The notes under the pieces are model-generated. The model made no database searches, was not told where the DNA came from, and was given only the letters and a program-made list of their open reading frames with translations. Position numbers and translations under genes: made by a program. Positions 560 through 48,602 of a stretch of DNA of 64,000 nt are shown one piece after another (within the stretch, counting starts at the first letter, position 1; each line of letters starts with the position of its first letter). This stretch comes from Desulfonatronospira thiodismutans ASO3-1 (GTDB taxonomy: Bacteria; Desulfobacterota; Desulfovibrionia; Desulfovibrionales; Desulfonatronovibrionaceae), in the NCBI RefSeq assembly GCF_000174435.1, contig NZ_ACJN02000003.1, positions 264,263 to 328,262 on the forward strand, in the 5' to 3' direction.

Positions 560-1510
560 TCTCCCCTCATAAATTGGGCTGATGCAAGCATCCCGCCGAT
601 TTGGCAATCACGGCCCAGACGATGCCTCGTAATTTAAATCCATCCCGTATGCGGCTTCGCCGTGGTTCGTGGTGAGGTTAGCAGGACACGACATCACCGA
701 TTCACTGACTTCTTACTGTCTTCTGAACATCTGACTTATAAATCAGGATTTACTCTTACAACTCAATATATTTCTTTGCAACAATCTCAGGCGTTATTCT
801 TGGTTCTGCGGCTTCGCCGCTGTTCCTGGTTAGTCGTTCTTGGTTCGGCCTTCGGCGTTCCTCGTTCCTGGTTCCTGGTTCGTGGTTCGTAGTTAATGAT
901 GAACGCGGCTTCGCCGTGGATCTTGGTTTTATGGGCAAATTATGCTGTCGGTAGTAGTCAAAGCACAGGGTTTCGGCGCAGCGTTTGCCCTAATCATAGC
1001 AAGCCCGCCGACCGATGGGATTAACATTACCCCAATAGCTTTCCGGCTGGGGAATGTAAACTCAAAACATGCAGACTATGCTATCTTTACACTTCGCGAT
1101 TAATTTCGGGGAAATACTCCGCGTCCACAGAGAAGAGATATTACCCACCCCAGTACCATCACAAGGATGAGCTACCCCTATAAAATCGGCAGAGCCGGCA
1201 CTTCGTGCATTTCATGGGGCAGCCGCAACACCCCAGTGTATTAAAGGAGAATACACGGGGCAGGCCCGGAAAGACACGGAAAAGTTAATCCCCCAATCCC
1301 TCAATTCCTAAATTCCTAAATTCCCCAATTCCTTCCTAAATCCCTGCCTCTTCCCCATGCCCCATGCCCTATGCCTTCTTCCCCAATCCCCCAATCCCTC
1401 AATTCCTAAATTCCTAAATTCCCCAATTCCTTCCTAAATCCCTGCCTCTTCCCCATGCCCCATGCCCTATGCCTTCTTCCCCAATCCCCCAATCCCTCAA
1501 TTCCCTGCAT
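560..1510. repeat. gene-free repeat region with palindromes and pyrimidine-rich repeats
   Basis: No convincing gene is seen. The stretch holds mini-hairpins (GCGGCTTCGCCGC type near 655, 805 and 903), a run of GTTCCTGGTTCGTGG-like repeats at 820-900, a copy of the nested palindromic element (about 1148-1264, see 2105-2230), and a directly repeated pyrimidine-rich text (CCCCAATCCCTCAATTCC and CCCCATGCCCTATGCC units) at about 1291-1505, where a roughly 93-bp block occurs twice in tandem. Confidence 0.7.
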
Positions 1511-4554: not shown

Positions 4555-4724
4555 GATCCCACGCTCTGTCCCGCTAGGCCAGGAAAAATCCCCCCAGGCG
4601 CTCATCGTCCACAGAGAAGAGATTTTGCCCACCCCAGTACCATCACAAGGCTGAGCTACCCCTATGAAATCGGCAGAGCCGGCACTTTGTGCATTTCATG
4701 GGGCAGGCGGGGCAGGCGGAACAC
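4555..4724. repeat. nested palindromic element, outer-only form
   Basis: This is the same repeat as at 2029-2230 and includes the outer element from about 4633 (CCCCAGTACCATC) to 4717 (GGGGCAGGC). Here GGAACA is joined directly to CCCGGAAAG at 4723/4724, so this copy is the empty site for the second hairpin seen at 2197-2230. Confidence 0.8.
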
Positions 4725-4742: not shown

Positions 4743-5020
4743 GTCACTCCCCCAATTCCCCAATTCCTGAATCCCCCAATTCCCCAATTCCTGAATCCCC
4801 CAATTCCCCAATTCCTGAATCCCCCAATTCCCCAATTCCTAAATCCCTGCCTTCTTCCCCATGCCCCATGTTTACCCCGTGAAACAGCCCGAAGGGCTCC
4901 CTGTCGCGGACAGGGGTTTCACCGGGGCCCCATCCCTTAATCCCTCAATCCCTAAATCTTCCATCCCTCAATCCCTAAATCTTCCATCCCTCAATCCCCC
5001 AATTCCGAATTCCTAAATTC
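4743..5020. repeat. pyrimidine-rich tandem text with a cloverleaf palindrome
   Basis: Tandem units of the form CCCCCAATTCCCCAATTCCTGAAT run from 4745 to 4850 with similar text at 4935-5015. Between them, 4875-4931 is a cloverleaf palindrome: outer stem CCCCGTGAAAC / GTTTCACCGGGG with internal hairpins AGCCCgaaGGGCT and CCCTGTcgcggACAGGG. The counterpart at 18719-18788 sits in the same flanking text. From 5020 to 5433 no further gene is supported. Confidence 0.75.
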
Positions 5021-19993: not shown

Positions 19994-20027
19994 CCCCAGT
20001 GTATTGGAAGAATATACACGGGGCAGG
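19994..20027. repeat. 34-bp CCCCAGT hairpin insertion (filled site)
   Basis: CCCCAGTGTATT, a short loop, then AATATACACGGGGCAGG. The empty counterpart at 10391-10394 reads TTTTTTGA joined to CAGGATTAACC. The stem has an unpaired A after the CCCC clamp. Confidence 0.85.
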
Positions 20028-20716: not shown

Positions 20717-20904
20717 AAAGGTGTTTCATAGATTCCAACATTGTGGTCTATGCCAATGACACCCGGGCCAAGTCCAGGCAATCGCGGGCTATAGAGACCA
20801 TCAGTGCTTGCATGAGGGCCGGAAAAGTTACAGAGAATATGGGGACATTATGTTGCGAGTTTACCCGGTTGAACATTTATCCGGTTAAATCTTCTTCCAT
20901 TTAA
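20713..20904 (+). pseudogene. PIN toxin truncated after about 36 codons
   Basis: MKRCFIDSNIVVYANDTRAK and the following residues to MRAG equal the start of the intact toxin at 39567-40010. After that the reading frame enters the repeated GGGGACATTATGTTGCGAG sequence and the palindrome at 20864. Only the first Asp of the PIN active site is left. Confidence 0.85.
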
Positions 20905-20949
20905 CTGGACGGCTGTGCCGTAGCCCTTCGGTCTGTTCAACTGGGTGAA
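20864..20949. repeat. 86-bp nested palindromic insertion (filled site)
   Basis: Outer stem CCCGGTTGAAC / GTTCAACTGGG with a G:T mismatch after the clamp. Inside are a nested hairpin ATCCGGTTAAAT / ATTTAACTGGA and a hairpin ACGGCtgtGCCGT-like arm. The empty site at 30851 reads GCGAGTTTA joined to GTTATGTTGCC. Confidence 0.85.
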
Positions 20950-28639: not shown

Positions 28640-28980
28640 TCACATGCCCTGCAGGGCCAGAAAGATGAGCAGCAGCCCGCCCAGGGCAGCCAGAAGACCA
28701 AAGACCCTGGGGTGCCTTGCCGTCAGGTTCAGGTAGCCCTGGCGCAGGCGCTTAAGCAGGTTTATTATATCCTCTTTACTGATAAAACGGTTGGATTTTT
28801 TTTCCAGGGGCTTTAGCGCGCTGGGCCTTATGGTCACCACGACCCCGATGACTGCTATGGCCGCTCCAAAAATAAAGAAAACCACGGTCAGGGCCTGATA
28901 GAAAACAAGTAAGGAATTCTCTGCGGGAGCGGATCCGGACAGAAGCCAGGCTGCAAAACACAAGAGAACTCCCCCCAGGG
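28640..28980 (-). pseudogene. membrane protein, N-terminal third missing (copy 2)
   Basis: Identical to residues about 65-176 of the intact protein at 38691-39221 (GSAPAENSLLVFYQALTVVF ... LIFLALQGM), with two to three membrane helices left. The match ends at 28980, where GGAAGAAGGG and the RAYT-2 leader follow. The 28464-28639 spacer matches 50660-50830, linking this gene and the coiled-coil gene as an ancestral pair. Confidence 0.8.
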
Positions 28981-29080: not shown

Positions 29081-30001
29081 ATGCCCCGCATAGCCCGTTT
29101 TATCCGTAATGACCGCCAAACCGTCTACCATGTCATATCACGTACTGCCCTGCCCGGCCTGCCCATCAAGGATACTGACAAGGATTATCTGCTGGGGCTT
29201 ATCAAAAGACTGAGCAGGCTTTACTTTGTTGACGTGCTGGGTTTCGCAGTTATGGGGAATCATTTCCACCTGGTAGCCCGGATGCACCCTGAGGATGAAA
29301 TTTCCAACTCAGACATCATCAAGAGATGGCAGGACTATTATGGTGACAAGGTCGAGATGCCTACTGACCGGATGGCTGAGGTCAAGAAGAGGCTTTGCAG
29401 CCTTGGGGCCTATGTGAAGGACATCAAGCAGAATTTTACCCGGTATTATAATAAGAAGCACAGGCGACAGGGATTTTTCTGGGGAGGCCGGTTTAAGAGT
29501 ATGATTGTCCAGGAAGGCAGTACTCTTGTTAATTTGCTGGCCTATGTGGATTTAAACCCTATCCGTGCAGGTATTGTGAAGAAACCGGAGAATTACCGCT
29601 GGAGCTCACTTGGCTACCATACCCAGACCGGCAATAAAGACGGCCTGCTGGACATTGATTTTGGCCTCAAGGAGTGGAACGAGCTGGACCCCAAAGAGAT
29701 TGTCCGCAAGTACAGGCAGTTTGTTTACGAGACCGGAGCAGTAGACGCCGGCAAAGGCAAGACCATTGATCAAAAGGTTGTGGAAAAAGCCAGGAAAAAA
29801 GGCTACAAGATATCCAGGACTGACCGGTTCAGATACAGATGCCGGTATTTTACCGATTCCGGGGTTATCGGCGGGAAGGACTTTGTGCAGGAAGTCTTTG
29901 ACCAGGTTAAGCACTTGCTTGGTTCCAAGGATGAGCGGAAATTTACGCCGGTTGGCGGTGTCGAGGGTTTGTACTCTATGAAGAGGTTGGGCGCTTCATA
30001 G
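29081..30001 (+). CDS. RAYT transposase, subtype 2
   Basis: A 306-residue RAYT that opens MPRIARFIRNDRQTVYHVIS. It has HUH motif GNHFHL and catalytic Tyr in FTRYYNKKHRR, and diverges from subtype 1 in the first two-thirds while the last third is almost the same. GGAGG lies before the ATG. Its leader starts GGGGACAGTCTC...TTTTATTTCAG, different from subtype 1. A broken sister copy is at 34705-36099. Confidence 0.88.
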   Translation: MPRIARFIRNDRQTVYHVISRTALPGLPIKDTDKDYLLGLIKRLSRLYFVDVLGFAVMGNHFHLVARMHPEDEISNSDIIKRWQDYYGDKVEMPTDRMAEVKKRLCSLGAYVKDIKQNFTRYYNKKHRRQGFFWGGRFKSMIVQEGSTLVNLLAYVDLNPIRAGIVKKPENYRWSSLGYHTQTGNKDGLLDIDFGLKEWNELDPKEIVRKYRQFVYETGAVDAGKGKTIDQKVVEKARKKGYKISRTDRFRYRCRYFTDSGVIGGKDFVQEVFDQVKHLLGSKDERKFTPVGGVEGLYSMKRLGAS

Positions 30002-30196: not shown

Positions 30197-30436
30197 ATGG
30201 AGGCAAAGGCAATTAAGGTGGGAAATAGATTGGCATTCATTGTACCTGAACCAATCGCCGAAAAGTGCGGAATTTTTGAAAACACCTCTGTTGATATTTC
30301 GCTAAGAGATGACGAAATTGTAGTCAGACCCCAGCGTAAAAAGTATATACTGTCCGAACTTTTGGCAGAAATCACCCCGGATAATATCCATAAAGAAGTA
30401 GGCAGTGGCGAACCTGTTGGACAGGAAATGCTTTAA
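30197..30436 (+). CDS. mazE: MazE-type antitoxin
   Basis: A 79-residue AbrB/MazE swapped-hairpin protein: MEAKAIKVGNRLAFIVPEPI, then SVDISLRDDEIVVRPQRKKY, and an acidic tail. AAGGAG precedes the ATG. Its last base is the first base of mazF. Confidence 0.88.
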   Translation: MEAKAIKVGNRLAFIVPEPIAEKCGIFENTSVDISLRDDEIVVRPQRKKYILSELLAEITPDNIHKEVGSGEPVGQEML

Positions 30437-30771
30437 TGTATGTGCCTGATCGCGGTCATATCGTATGGTTGAACTTTAATCCCCAAACCGGGCATGAACA
30501 GGCAGGTCATCGCCCTGCACTGGTGCTTTCCCCTGCTTCATACAACGGCAAAACAGGACTCGCATTATTTTGCCCTATCTCGAACAAAATTAAAGGGTAC
30601 CCTTTTGAGGTCATGATCAAAGGCCACACTTCAATCTCAGGTGTTGCCTTGGCTGACCAAGTCAAAAACCTGGATTGGCGCGCCCGTGGGCTGAAGTTTG
30701 CTGCTTCGGTGGATGAGAGCATACTCGAAGATGTTATAGCCAAGTTTGAAGCATTATTACGCTCTGCTTAA
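30436..30771 (+). CDS. mazF: MazF endoribonuclease toxin
   Basis: A 111-residue MazF: YVPDRGHIVWLNFNPQTGHE, QAGHRPALVLSPASYNGKTG, ALFCPISNKIKGYPFEVMI and ADQVKNLDWRARGLKF, i.e. all core strands with the conserved RPALVLSP. Complete and coupled to mazE by an overlap of one base (TAATG). Confidence 0.92.
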   Translation: MYVPDRGHIVWLNFNPQTGHEQAGHRPALVLSPASYNGKTGLALFCPISNKIKGYPFEVMIKGHTSISGVALADQVKNLDWRARGLKFAASVDESILEDVIAKFEALLRSA

Positions 30772-32015: not shown

Positions 32016-32588
32016 ATGCTGGACAGGCAGATCCAGGACTACCTGGAATGGATGAACAATGCCGGGTATGCTCCATGGACAATGGCCCAACACAGCCAAA
32101 TTCTAAACCGGCTGCTGGACTTTGTGGTGCTAAATAGCATCCCCTGGGAGCGTACCTTTGCCCGGGATACCTTGCAGGCATTTAAGGACCATGTCCAGGT
32201 TAAGTATGCCGGGTTTGTCCTGCGCGGATTCATGCGCTACCTGCACCAGAATGGCATAATCTGCTTGCCGCCGGGTGCTTTGCCTGAAGGCAGAGGCAGG
32301 AGCAAGCTCCAAAGAGCCCAGCTGCCCAGGCTTTATGAAGAGTATCTCCAATTCTACACCCAAACCCGCCAAGTAGGAAAACAGCAGATTTACCGGGTCC
32401 AGGGGACTCTATCCGCACTTAATGACTACCTGCAAAACCAGGGCATGGAGCTTAAAGATCTGGATGTCTTACATATGGATGCTTTTCTGGCTGAGAGAAA
32501 CAGGAACTTTGCTCCTGAAACCAGGATCAACCAGCGCTCGGTCCTCAGAGGTTTCCTGCGCTACCTGTTGATGAGGCCAGGTCTCTGA
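32016..32588 (+). pseudogene. tyrosine recombinase, catalytic domain missing
   Basis: A 190-residue N-terminal region with two SAM-like core-binding modules (MLDRQIQDYLEWMNNAGYAP ... and YRVQGTLSALNDYLQNQGME). The R..H-R-Y catalytic domain is absent because the frame enters the palindrome CCAGGTCTCTGAGACCAGC at 32577. It follows the CHC2 gene by five bases. Confidence 0.7.
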
Positions 32589-32711
32589 GACCAGCAACTG
32601 CTTGTTTTTATTAAGTTTAACCCTCTAAAATAGCCCATTTTCACCCCCCTGGTGTAATTCGCTACGCTCGTGACTGCGTCAATTACACTGGGTAAACTTA
32701 CAGACAACTTT
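32575..32711. repeat. 137-bp composite palindrome (copy 1)
   Basis: CCAGGTCTCTGAGACCAGCA, then GTTTAACCC ... GGGTAAAC enclosing AAAATagcccATTTT and GGTGTAATT ... AATTACACT, i.e. an outer stem with two inner hairpins. The duplicate is at 37590-37726. From 32712 to 33108 no gene is seen. Confidence 0.75.
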
Positions 32712-33108
32712 TGCCTCCGGCGCCACCCGGATCTATACGTAACCATCCAAGATTATTATCAATTAATATTAAAAATCTCTCGGATCAGTTAACCCCTCCC
32801 GCAGGCAACGCAAAAATATCCGTATTCCATAAAGCGGATAGTGCCCTACGAGTCTCATTTCCCCCTCACCCGATACGCCAACAACATAACCCTTTCTTAC
32901 TGCCCCCTACGACTTCCTCACCGCAACCCAACGCTGCAGACCCTCAAGAATAGCCCTCACAGTCCCATATAGAGCTTCCAACCTTTTTCCCGACCAACTT
33001 ACCTCATCTTTTTTCCTTCAAGGCCGCTATATGGCTTTGTGTGGATTCAAAAATTAAGCCTTCTTCGGTTGTAAGCTTGTAAGAGCACTATAACAAGGAG
33101 GTTTAATT

Positions 33109-34473: not shown

Positions 34474-34503
34474 ACCCAAACCAGATAAACCTTTATCCCA
34501 AAA

Positions 34504-34529
34504 GGGCCGGGCCTCCCCGGCCTTTTTTT
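34504..34529 (+). terminator. rho-independent terminator
   Basis: GGCCGGG and CCCGGCC form a stem with a short loop, followed by seven Ts, after the flagellin remnant and the Rpn gene. Confidence 0.85.
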
Positions 34530-34792
34530 GTGCTTTCAAAACCGGGCTGCAATAGGCTTCGACCCGGCGGCTGAGCACGAAAGAGAACTCGCAACATAAG
34601 GGACAGTCACTATTTGCGTTTTATTTCAGTTTATGCTGTCCATTCTTCCAACAGCTCAACCACCAGCCTTAAAGCTCAACCACCAGCCTTAAAGGAGGTG
34701 CTCCATGCCCCGCATAGCCCGCTTTATCCGTAATGACCGCCAAACCGTCTATCACGTCATATCCCGTACTGCCCATTGAGAAGGAATCAGGA

Positions 34793-35266
34793 GTCAGGGG
34801 ACAGGAGACAGAAAGATGGGAGTGCAGTCAGTCAAGGAATTAATCGTTTATCAAAAGGCATACAAACTGGCGATGCACATATTCGAGATCAGCAAAATGT
34901 TTCCAGATGAAGAAAGGTATGCTCTGACAAGTCAGATCAGACGTTCTTCACGTTCAGTGTGCTTGAATTTGCGTGAGGCATGGGCCAAGAGACGGTACGA
35001 AGCACACTTTATTAGCAAACTTACAGATTGCGATGGTGAAAACAACGAGACAGATACATCTCTGGATTTTGCTAAAGATTGTCAATACATAAAAAATGAG
35101 CAACATGCAGAACTAACCTCACTGTGTAAAGAAATCGGCAATATGCTGGGCAGCATGATCAACAATCCCCAACCTTTTATACTTAACAAGTAGATATTCT
35201 TTTCATTCTGCTTCCTCCCGACTTCAATCGACCCTCTTCTGCTTCCCCTGTCTCCTGTTTCCTGAC
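34793..35266 (+). mobile_element. IVS-like element with inverted repeats carrying a four-helix-bundle gene
   Basis: GTCAGGGGACAGGAGACAG at the left (34793-34811) and CTGTCTCCTGTTTCCTGAC at the right (35248-35266) are complementary at 17 of 19 positions and enclose the gene at 34816. The element sits in a RAYT gene rather than in 23S rRNA, where similar proteins encoded in intervening sequences are known. The outer junctions to RAYT sequence are near 34776 and 35282. Confidence 0.75.
34816..35193 (+). CDS. four-helix-bundle protein, 23S rRNA IVS type
   Basis: A 125-residue protein: VKELIVYQKAYKLAMHIFEI, then EERYALTSQIRRSSRSVCLN, L(R)EAWAKRRYEAHFISKLTDC and LCKEIGNMLGSMI. This is the four-helix-bundle family (S23/IVP) encoded in intervening sequences of bacterial 23S rRNA genes and also found as free genes. 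The usual IAEG is LREA here. Function unknown; a nucleic-acid-binding role has been proposed for the family. Enclosed by inverted repeats. Confidence 0.85.
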   Translation: MGVQSVKELIVYQKAYKLAMHIFEISKMFPDEERYALTSQIRRSSRSVCLNLREAWAKRRYEAHFISKLTDCDGENNETDTSLDFAKDCQYIKNEQHAELTSLCKEIGNMLGSMINNPQPFILNK

Positions 35267-35342
35267 ACCTATCTTCCTCGTCCCTATCCGTGCTGGAATA
35301 GTAAAGAAACCCGAGGATTACCGCTGGAGTTCACTTGGCTAC

Positions 35343-35474
35343 TTCACCCGGTTAAATGCTGCGTAGCAGCCCTCGCACAGATCAGCTCCCCTCCTGTACA
35401 TCACATCACTACTTTTAAATTTCCCCAAATCGAAATTATGCACATTTTATGTGCGAGGATTTAACTGGGCAAGC
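35343..35474. repeat. 132-bp cloverleaf insertion (b)
   Basis: Left end TTCACCCGGTTAAAT, right end ATTTAACTGGGCAAGC, with a G:T mismatch next to the clamp. Internal hairpins are GCTGCgtaGCAGC and a 9-bp CCTCGCACA / TGTGCGAGG arm with a long loop. It lies in the RAYT codons for GYHTQ and adds an in-frame TAG. Confidence 0.88.
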
Positions 35475-35494
35475 ACCCAGGCCGGCAATAAAGA

Positions 35495-35546
35495 TCCCAG
35501 TGAAATCCCGCTTTGCGGGTCACTTCGAGAATTTCACAGGACAAGC
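35495..35546. repeat. 52-bp palindromic insertion (c)
   Basis: TCCCAGTGAAAT ... ATTTCACAGGACAAGC with an inner hairpin CCCGCtttGCGGG. It lies between AATAAAGA and GGCTTGCTGGA of the RAYT gene. Confidence 0.88.
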
Positions 35547-35758
35547 GGCTTGCTGGATATTGATTTCGGGCTCAAGGAGTGGAACGAGCTGGACCCCAAA
35601 GAGATTGTCCGCAAATACAGGCAGTTTGTTTACGAGACCGGAGCAGTAGACGCCGGCAAAGGCAAGACTATTGAAAAAAAGATTGTGGAAAAGGCCAGGA
35701 AAAAGGGCTATAAGATATCCCGAGTAGAGCGCTTCAGGTACAGATGCCGGTATTTTAC

Positions 35759-35863
35759 CCGGTTAAACACCCAGCACTCACTTTAATATTTTCGGCTCCA
35801 TCATAAACAAACAAATGGAAAAGTGAGTGCTGGGTCACGCGGAGCCGGGTTTAACCGGGTAAA
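35759..35863. repeat. 105-bp palindromic insertion (d)
   Basis: CCGGTTAAAC ... GTTTAACCGGGTAAA, with the inner arm CCAGCACTCACTTT / AAAGTGAGTGCTGG that also occurs at 20184-20280. Host sequence TATTTTAC and CCGATTCC flank it. Confidence 0.88.
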
Positions 35864-35905
35864 CCGATTCCGGAGTTATCGGCGGCAAGGATTTTGTCCA
35901 GGAGG

Positions 35906-35940
35906 CCCCAGTAAAATGGGAAGAAATTTTACGGGGTAAA
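35906..35940. repeat. 35-bp hairpin insertion (e)
   Basis: CCCCAGTAAAAT, a 5-6 base loop, then AATTTTACGGGGTAAA, with an unpaired A after the clamp. It splits CAGGAGG from TATTTGACC; the intact genes have these joined. Confidence 0.9.
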
Positions 35941-35977
35941 TATTTGACCAGGTCAAGCACCTTCTTGGCTCCAAGGA

Positions 35978-36033
35978 TTCACCCAGTTAAACAGACCTCC
36001 GGTCTACGGCTTCGCCGTGTTTAACCGGGCAGG
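35978..36033. repeat. 56-bp cloverleaf insertion (f)
   Basis: TTCACCCAGTTAAAC ... GTTTAACCGGGCAGG, with two perfect inner hairpins AGACCtccGGTCT and ACGGCttcGCCGT and an A:C mismatch after the clamp. It replaces four bases (CAAG) found in subtype-1 RAYT genes at this point. Confidence 0.9.
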
Positions 36034-36111
36034 CGCAAATTCACGCCCGTAGGCGGTGTGGAGGGTTTGTACTCTATGAAGCGATTGAAACAAACTTAAT
36101 AAAGGTCCAGT

Positions 36112-36406
36112 AAAAATTGCAGATTTGAATAAAGCTTAGCCGGACATAAATCTGGGTTCACTTCTGCAGTCTTTGACTCAACTTGCCCACGGCGGTGCAA
36201 TAGGCTTCTATGTCCGTGATGCAAACAAAAAACCAGCCATAAATTTCAATCAGACCTTAGCCGAACTGGTATCCCGAGGCGCATCTTACAGGTACCTGGG
36301 CCTGCCTGGTATCGGTACTGGCATAAACCTTGACGTGATCCAGTGGATGGCTATTGATGTCACCGGATTTCTGCCAGTCAGTAACGGAATAATCAGCTGC
36401 GGATGA
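36112..36406 (+). pseudogene. remnant of an unidentified protein
   Basis: The frame reads VKIADLNKA, a TAG, then PDINLGSLLQSLTQLAHGGA, IGFYVRDANKKPAINFNQTL and so on to 36406. The in-frame continuity across the TAG and protein-like composition suggest the tail of a real gene, but no family is recognised. Nothing else is seen before 36507. Confidence 0.3.
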
Positions 36407-38690: not shown

Positions 38691-39221
38691 TCACATGCCC
38701 TGCAGGGCCAGAAAGATGAGCAGCAGCCCGCCCAGGGCAGCCAGAAGACCAAAGACCCTGGGGTGCCTTGCCGTCAGGTTCAGGTAGCCCTGGCGCAGGC
38801 GCTTAAGCAGGTTTATTATATCCTCTTTACTGATAAAACGGTTGGATTTTTTTTCCAGGGGCTTTAGCGCGCTGGGCCTTATGGTCACCACGACCCCGAT
38901 GACTGCTATGGCCGCTCCAAAAATAAAGAAAACCACGGTCAGGGCCTGATAGAAAACAAGTAAGGAATTCTCTGCGGGAGCGGATCCGGACAGAAGCCAG
39001 GCTGCAAAACACAAGAGAACTCCCCCCAGGACGGTCACGGGGCCGGTGATCCTGTGGTGGCGGTAATAATAGCGCTCCAGGCGGATGCTTGGATTGACCG
39101 CCTGCAACGCTTGACGCACGGGGAGACTAAGCCTGTTCACCGCGCCGGGCCGCACGAGAACCACAATCCCGCAGGCCAGGGCCAGCAGGCCGGCTGTAAG
39201 AAAAAGCAGGCTAAGGATCAA
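38691..39221 (-). CDS. inner-membrane protein, intact copy
   Basis: A 176-residue protein with about four membrane segments (ILSLLFLTAGLLALACGIVV, VLGGVLLCFAAWLLSG, ALTVVFFIFGAAIAVIGVVV, FGLLAALGGLLLIFLALQ) and two loops with VRPGAVNRL and IRPSALKPL, indicating an internal duplication. The start would be TTG at 39221. Truncated copies: 28640 and about 50830. Function unknown. Confidence 0.7.
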   Translation of the reverse strand: MILSLLFLTAGLLALACGIVVLVRPGAVNRLSLPVRQALQAVNPSIRLERYYYRHHRITGPVTVLGGVLLCFAAWLLSGSAPAENSLLVFYQALTVVFFIFGAAIAVIGVVVTIRPSALKPLEKKSNRFISKEDIINLLKRLRQGYLNLTARHPRVFGLLAALGGLLLIFLALQGM

Positions 39222-48419: not shown

Positions 48420-48602
48420 CCCCAGCGCTCCGCGTCCACAGAGAAGAGATATTACCCACCCCAGAACCATCACAAGGCTGAGCTACCCCTGTGAAATCGG
48501 CAGAGCCGGCACTTCGTGCATTTCATGGGGCAAGCGGGGCAGGCGGAACACCTCAGTGTATTAAAAGAAAATACACGGGGCAAGTCCGGAAAGACACGGA
48601 AG
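48420..48602. repeat. nested palindromic element, filled form (copy 4)
   Basis: CCCCAGAACCATC outer element with the inner CCCCTGTGAAAT ... ATTTCATGGGGCAAGC fold, then the second hairpin CCTCAGTGTATT ... AATACACGGGGCAAG. The compensating CAGGC/CAAGC variation matches that at other sites. Confidence 0.78.

Follow-up and report, generated by a model that had tools for sequence, protein, structure and literature searches.

A degenerate RAYT gene copy in the 64,000-nucleotide stretch of Desulfonatronospira thiodismutans ASO3-1 analysed here (the window) is interrupted by members of a family of ~30–50-base self-folding DNA inserts, which occurs in several phyla, mostly between genes, and which has neither a gene of its own nor a recurrent neighbouring gene. 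The explanation favoured here, tentatively and at close to an even chance, is that these inserts are non-autonomous mobile hairpins that are moved in trans, most likely by a Y1/HUH enzyme. The locus can be read against an uninterrupted copy upstream, and its parts are the following:

29081–30001, plus strand: intact RAYT/TIRYT gene (306 aa, Y1_Tnp), used as the reference without inserts
34605–36087, plus strand: degenerate RAYT copy, by alignment to the intact copy
34605–34774, 35282–35342, 35475–35494 and 35546–35757, plus strand: host blocks of the degenerate copy, first part, by alignment
35863–35905, 35941–35978 and 36034–36087, plus strand: host blocks of the degenerate copy, remainder, by alignment
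34775–35281, plus strand: 23S-IVP / four-helix-bundle element with ORF 34816–35193 and imperfect terminal inverted repeats
35347–35473, plus strand: insert 1, Y-type hairpin with one long arm (35347–35469, 123 bp) and 4-nt tail CAAG; site 617
35495–35545, plus strand: insert 2, T-CCC ... GG-A, 51 bp, tail CAAG; site 640
35758–35863, plus strand: insert 3, Y-type with long arm (35758–35859, 102 bp) and 4-nt tail TAAA; site 852
35906–35940, plus strand: insert 4, S-type single hairpin, 35 bp, tail TAAA; site 892
35982–36033, plus strand: insert 5, Y-type with two small hairpins (three-way junction; 35982–36029, 48 bp) and 4-nt tail CAGG; site 932

The intact gene matches Pfam PF01797 (E 1.4e-7) and, under the cut-off, NCBIfam NF047646 REP_Tyr_transpos. 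When 29081–30001 is aligned with 34501–36200, the host blocks share 81–95% identity and the five palindromic insertions reported in the preliminary description are seen between them, with sizes that had been given (132, 52, 105, 35 and 56 bp) correctly to within 1–5 bp. A sixth change, absent from that description, is the exchange of RAYT bases 29151–29556 (406 bp) for the element at 34775–35281, an Avd relative by its matches to PF05635 (E 7.7e-33) and bAvd (E 4.1e-14); since this IVP element took the place of those bases, the copy is without much of its 5' half. The IVP gene sits here within a RAYT and outside any rRNA, and elements of this kind may be mobile too. In the surroundings, the same membrane-protein-like sequence (MCFAAWLLSGSAPAENSLLVFYQALT...) is found twice, at 28640–28963 and 38691–39221, one of them truncated beside the RAYT, and a small gene pair that by eye resembles a MazE/MazF-type antitoxin-toxin lies at 30197–30771, just downstream of the intact RAYT.

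Inserts 1, 2, 3 and 5 fold as DNA more stably than every dinucleotide-shuffled version of themselves, with z scores of -5.1, -3.3, -8.6 and -3.8, respectively; insert 4 folds as CCCC.GTAAAAT/ATTTTAC-GGGG, in which a free A lies next to a four-base clamp. Insert 2 is placed between AAAGA and CGGC of the RAYT and insert 3 directly after a RAYT TTTA. The common unit is CCC-N-stem7-core-stem7'-N-GGG followed by a 4-nt tail, chiefly TAAA, CAGG, CAAG or TGAA, which together make up 91% of the YRRR-form tails. The stem has 7 bp and is A/T-rich, and a single free base separates it from the clamp on each side. The core of S-type members is a single loop, often ending in GAAGA, while that of Y-type members consists of one to two small hairpins forming a three-way junction. 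Among 219 distinct matches chosen irrespective of pairing, Watson-Crick pairs occupy stem positions 3, 4 and 7 in 94, 93 and 94% against 60, 77 and 72% in shuffled sequences, and the base adjacent to the clamp has a partner in 14% (10% in shuffles); the stem therefore covaries and the mismatch is kept, so that the free base beside the CCC/GGG clamp, already pointed out in the preliminary description, is a real feature that is maintained unpaired. A search of Rfam gave two sub-threshold chance matches only, both outside the inserts.

The way in which the elements sit in DNA was read from empty copies, sought in the own genome and in relatives with queries in which the two flanks of an element were fused. 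Many filled/empty pairs were obtained in this way, in which the filled copy equals the empty one plus the hairpin plus 4 nt. A 4-bp target duplication could have explained this gain but was discarded, as the flanks on the two sides are not alike: the 4-nt tail is unlike the left flank in nearly all pairs. Entry thus occurs without target duplication and leaves host, hairpin and 4 nt. In head-to-tail arrays of Desulfonatronospira isolate CSSed11_143 (G006, C136) the period is 54 bp, that is, a 50-bp hairpin plus 4. Other members in the window include:

1176–1219, strand unassigned: Y-type member, with other copies at 2133–2176, 4660–4703 and 48487–48530
1232–1260, plus strand: S-type member, with others at 2198–2226 and 19995–20023
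4875–4926, strand unassigned: Y-type member, DNA fold z -4.8
20864–20945, minus strand: composite of an S hairpin inside a Y hairpin, at the core/stem boundary, with empty copies found

The Y form often inserts after TTTA. In particular, the Y-form targets resolved by filled/empty pairs are TTTA at no fewer than five sites and CTTG at one, and RAYT sites 438, 852 and 945 each lie exactly after TTTA in a gene that has only eight of them. The S form, for which filled/empty pairs exist at 2198 and 19995 among others, goes into variable sites (AAGA, TTGA, GAGG, GCCG, TCGG and AACA), among them, repeatedly, the junction at which the core of another member meets its 3' stem, as at 20864–20945 of the window, L062:4043–4119 and L063:1430–1512; the resulting nesting reaches three deep in a triple nest at L064:1185–1284. 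Tandem Y elements at C1:345879–346066 (L062) each have a further Y-like palindrome within one arm. The complementarity of left and right 4-mers is slightly above that of shuffles in the Y-like class alone (2.24 versus 2.10), and because the excess is so slight and confined to that class, pairing between target and tail is not claimed.

The genome-wide search was made with a pattern in which the clamp and GT..AA/TT..AC were fixed and nothing else; in the own genome (4.1 Mb, 5 contigs) this clamp-plus-stem pattern gave 113 matches against 2 in the reversed control. With a stricter pattern, relatives of the same genus carry 0–102 copies and those of the family a maximum of 53, and there were no copies in two other families of the order. 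Of the 395 genomes sampled across the phylum, 33 contain matches; in about half of these there are only one or two hits, which may be chance matches. A scan of named genomes listed at least 119 stretches; the matches listed come from Desulfobacterota, Bacteroidota, Cloacimonadota, Patescibacteria lineages, Elusimicrobia and Neomarinimicrobiota, and most of them have the same stem and tail. Twelve genomes of other lineages hold 4–147 copies each, with 0 in the control, the groups concerned being Bacteroidota, Parcubacteria, Kaiserbacteria, Cloacimonadota, Elusimicrobia and Desulfobacterota; examples are Bacteroidota CSMAG_1571 (147 copies in 3.1 Mb) and Parcubacteria GW2011_GWC1_36_108 (43 copies in 1.0 Mb). 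Many element-bearing genomes are metagenome bins in which single cases may be mis-binned, and since many lineages carry the elements this is unlikely as a general explanation. Viral contigs are almost free of them (3 stretches in 2.9 million contigs).

The history of the hairpins at the RAYT locus can be followed in the other copies of the gene. The genome has 20 full-length RAYT copies, 16 of which are without an in-frame stop, and about 10 more that are degenerate, the majority of these carrying hairpins. Sites 852, 892 and 932, which correspond to bases 29852, 29892 and 29932 of the intact copy, are filled in about 6, 5 and 3 RAYT copies in all, each with the same kind of hairpin and with site-typical variants (at 892 an S hairpin with the stem GTAAAAT, at 932 an E variant with AGACCTCC). 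Because other degenerate RAYTs carry them there, the hairpins at these three sites probably spread by duplication or gene conversion, and the RAYT copies appear mosaic. It is therefore likely that most hairpins of the locus entered once per site in an ancestor and spread among degenerate RAYTs, an account of the locus history that is compatible with hairpin mobility. The inserts at 35347 (site 617) and 35495 (site 640), private to the window copy among the copies compared, do not follow from it, nor does the tree, in which filled copies are not one clade and filled and empty ones are mixed. Repeated hits on one site also occur, since site 945 carries an unrelated Y element at the same TTTA in a RAYT of another family in the order (L040), and two different elements have entered a dispersed repeat at AGGT^CAGT (L041, L104). 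We infer that each site was hit once and that the hairpins then spread by duplication or gene conversion, a small number of changes, among them nesting and altered arms, being added later. Of the preliminary claim that the insertions were recent and repeated, insertion itself stands but five independent recent hits are not supported, as the same segments recur at the same place in other, degenerate RAYTs at three of the five sites. That the segments are ancestral and were deleted from the 29081 copy is practically out of the question: nothing in its favour was found, the 20 full-length RAYTs, mostly without in-frame stops, are without them, copy C4:52955 has hairpins at 852, 874 and 892 where its sister C5:108552 has none (tree support 0.995), and the same hairpin types lie at unrelated places. 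The intact RAYTs, open without the segments, and the many filled/empty pairs in the genome and its relatives bear out the earlier view of a mobile hairpin family as opposed to decay.

The RAYT is most likely a victim of the hairpins, since intact RAYTs are unflanked by hairpins and their left end is different; around the own 20 intact copies no flanking hairpins were found except those in neighbouring RAYT fragments. At all 20 loci (L001–L020) homology starts at GGGACAG, 85–101 bp upstream of the start codon, as if this motif marked the left end of a mobile RAYT, and the right ends differ. Four RAYT copies stand in tandem at L093 (C2:25884–30637), with two variants alternating. A dispersed repeat of ~420 bp (GACAGGATTAACAGGATTGACAGGAT ... 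TTAATCCTGTTAATCCTGTC) carries hairpins as well and is present in at least 9 places, among them L097 (C1:19900–20300 and 32460–32860), L101 and L095; its CCAGCACTCACTTT hairpin is also the long arm of Y elements, as in insert 3.

Elements are intergenic in 157 cases and within ORFs in 35, ORFs making up 84% of the DNA, and clustering of the genes around them returned housekeeping genes only, without a recurrent neighbour; as there is also no gene inside, the elements are regarded as non-autonomous. An HMM of the own RAYTs, run against element loci in other phyla, detected nothing beside the elements; in ~0.35 Mb of Parcubacteria/Kaiserbacteria DNA the elements are solo between genes, and a non-exhaustive search of that DNA and of ~0.5 Mb of the own genome for a full-length parent with the same ends showed no gene between the ends. 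In element-rich genomes 2 elements lie within the 89 kb around 30 Y1 genes. A Y1 gene is present in 11 of 12 element-bearing genomes, and G005 (12 elements, 97% completeness), G352 and G454 bear elements and have no Y1 match, an absence that is not firm because the Pfam Y1 model picks up even the present RAYT weakly; across the 395 phylum genomes Y1 is present in 73%, which says little on the mobiliser, and Y1 and element counts per genome do not track each other. Single-strand transposons prefer the lagging strand. The orientation of elements relative to GC skew showed no bias in the own genome, with 14 plus and 11 minus elements in negative-skew regions, a small sample of partly non-independent copies.

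A Y1-like enzyme is tentatively favoured because the unpaired foot base, the tetranucleotides at the junctions and the lack of target duplication are marks of Y1/HUH enzymes. TnpA of IS608 and of ISDra2 reads an unpaired or mismatched base of a short hairpin, and TnpAREP requires a bulge in the stem (PMC8266576). A single-strand mechanism of this type fits the anatomy but did not pass two weak tests; for the RAYT itself as mobiliser, the data on flanks and left boundaries gave no support. The same mobile family might instead be moved by another trans system, such as a recombinase that has yet to be named, reverse transcription of an RNA intermediate or repair of hairpin ends by the host, with Y1 and RAYT uninvolved. 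This is a serious possibility, rather short of an even chance, to which the lack of Y1 genes near elements, the element-bearing genomes without Y1 match, the absence of strand bias and the absence of a recurrent neighbour gene of any kind all point; it has to contend with a short hairpin whose foot mismatch is kept, with tetranucleotide junctions and lack of target duplication, all traits of Y1 elements, with loops and core/stem boundaries as targets, which suggest single-stranded DNA, and with a search that gave no alternative enzyme. Far less probable, and in our judgement very unlikely, is that the hairpins are structured RNA or DNA kept by function, as terminators or RNA motifs are, rather than mobile DNA: intergenic location and conserved structure would suit it, and it is opposed by the filled/empty pairs, the insertion within genes and within one another, the variation from 0 to 147 copies between genomes, the lack of an Rfam match and of a recurrent neighbour gene.

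Under the favoured Y1/HUH explanation the mobile form would be a folded single strand, in which the clamp and the mismatched foot serve for recognition, and a trans-acting, most likely TnpA-like enzyme would cut at the target and after the tail; the RAYT gene would serve as a multi-copy, dispensable target, and hairpins lodged in it would then have spread with RAYT copies via duplication and gene conversion. More broadly, and with some doubt, the family may represent a single undescribed class of minimal mobile elements across several phyla, composed of a hairpin foot, an A/T stem, interchangeable arms and a 4-nt tail, which would be mobile in the folded single-stranded state and would prefer to enter single-stranded places, for example other hairpins. 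The filled/empty pairs, the constant 4-nt junction and the nesting make mechanism and mobiliser testable, and the destinations of such repeats are now shown to comprise transposase genes, dispersed repeats and one another.

Very small palindromes are a common kind of repeat, and even for REPs the mode of movement is still a question. In the literature search, for which subscription papers were mostly out of reach so that absence is no proof, no paper gave the hairpin sequences as a repeat, the matches being mostly unrelated primers and oligonucleotides. The RAYT/TnpAREP-mobilised REP, BIME and REPIN repeats are also short imperfect intergenic hairpins, non-autonomous and in high copy, arranged in tandem or inverted arrays and with a tetranucleotide next to the foot, and the present family shares with REPs the short, intergenic, high-copy hairpin with a mismatch or bulge. 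However, REPs have a GTAG/GTGG or CGTC tag at the 5' foot, in place of which the family has TAAA, CAGG, CAAG, TGAA and complements, and in REPtrons the repeats flank the RAYT gene, which these hairpins do not. REPs are described as species-specific (PMC6006769), whereas the present hairpins, as a single family, keep their clamp and stem across phyla. A REPIN or BIME consists of two inverted REPs with inverted tags; the Y form is often bordered by YYYR...YRRR, but the sequences of its two hairpins are unlike and the left-hand word may belong to the host DNA.

The hairpin ends of IS200/IS605 and their MITE-like derivatives also have an unpaired or mismatched base and no target duplication, and they insert after a fixed tetranucleotide, to which the frequent TTTA of the Y form may correspond. 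Unlike them, the family is without separate left and right ends, an internal tnpA, an identified guide sequence or an observed strand bias, and its S form is without a fixed target. Classical bacterial MITEs (NEMIS, ERIC, RUP) are likewise small, palindromic and non-autonomous, whereas the hairpins show neither target duplication nor long terminal repeats, and no parent element was found. Functionally they work like REPs, yet they lack the REP tag and the REPtron arrangement as well as the duplication and the parent of MITEs. Integron attC sites were considered and rejected: GTTRRRY-like boxes are present in the folded hairpin, but in inverted order (GTTRAAY...RTTYAAC), and some stems, GTGAAAT for instance, disagree with them.

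The TIRYT/TIRtron system accounts for the RAYT itself, whose left boundary GGGACAG / GGGGACAG fits the GGGGWSAS motif (PMC3733652). This motif bears no relation to the hairpins found as inserts. In yeast mitochondria, GC clusters nest and insert in genes. They too are very small mobile hairpins with a GC clamp and no gene inside (PMC4478555), but belong to a eukaryote organelle, and their likeness to the family is one of description. Among mobile palindromic repeats the family stands out as unusual in its cross-phylum spread, its nesting and its uniform architecture, which recurs in one recognisable form from Desulfobacterota to Patescibacteria.
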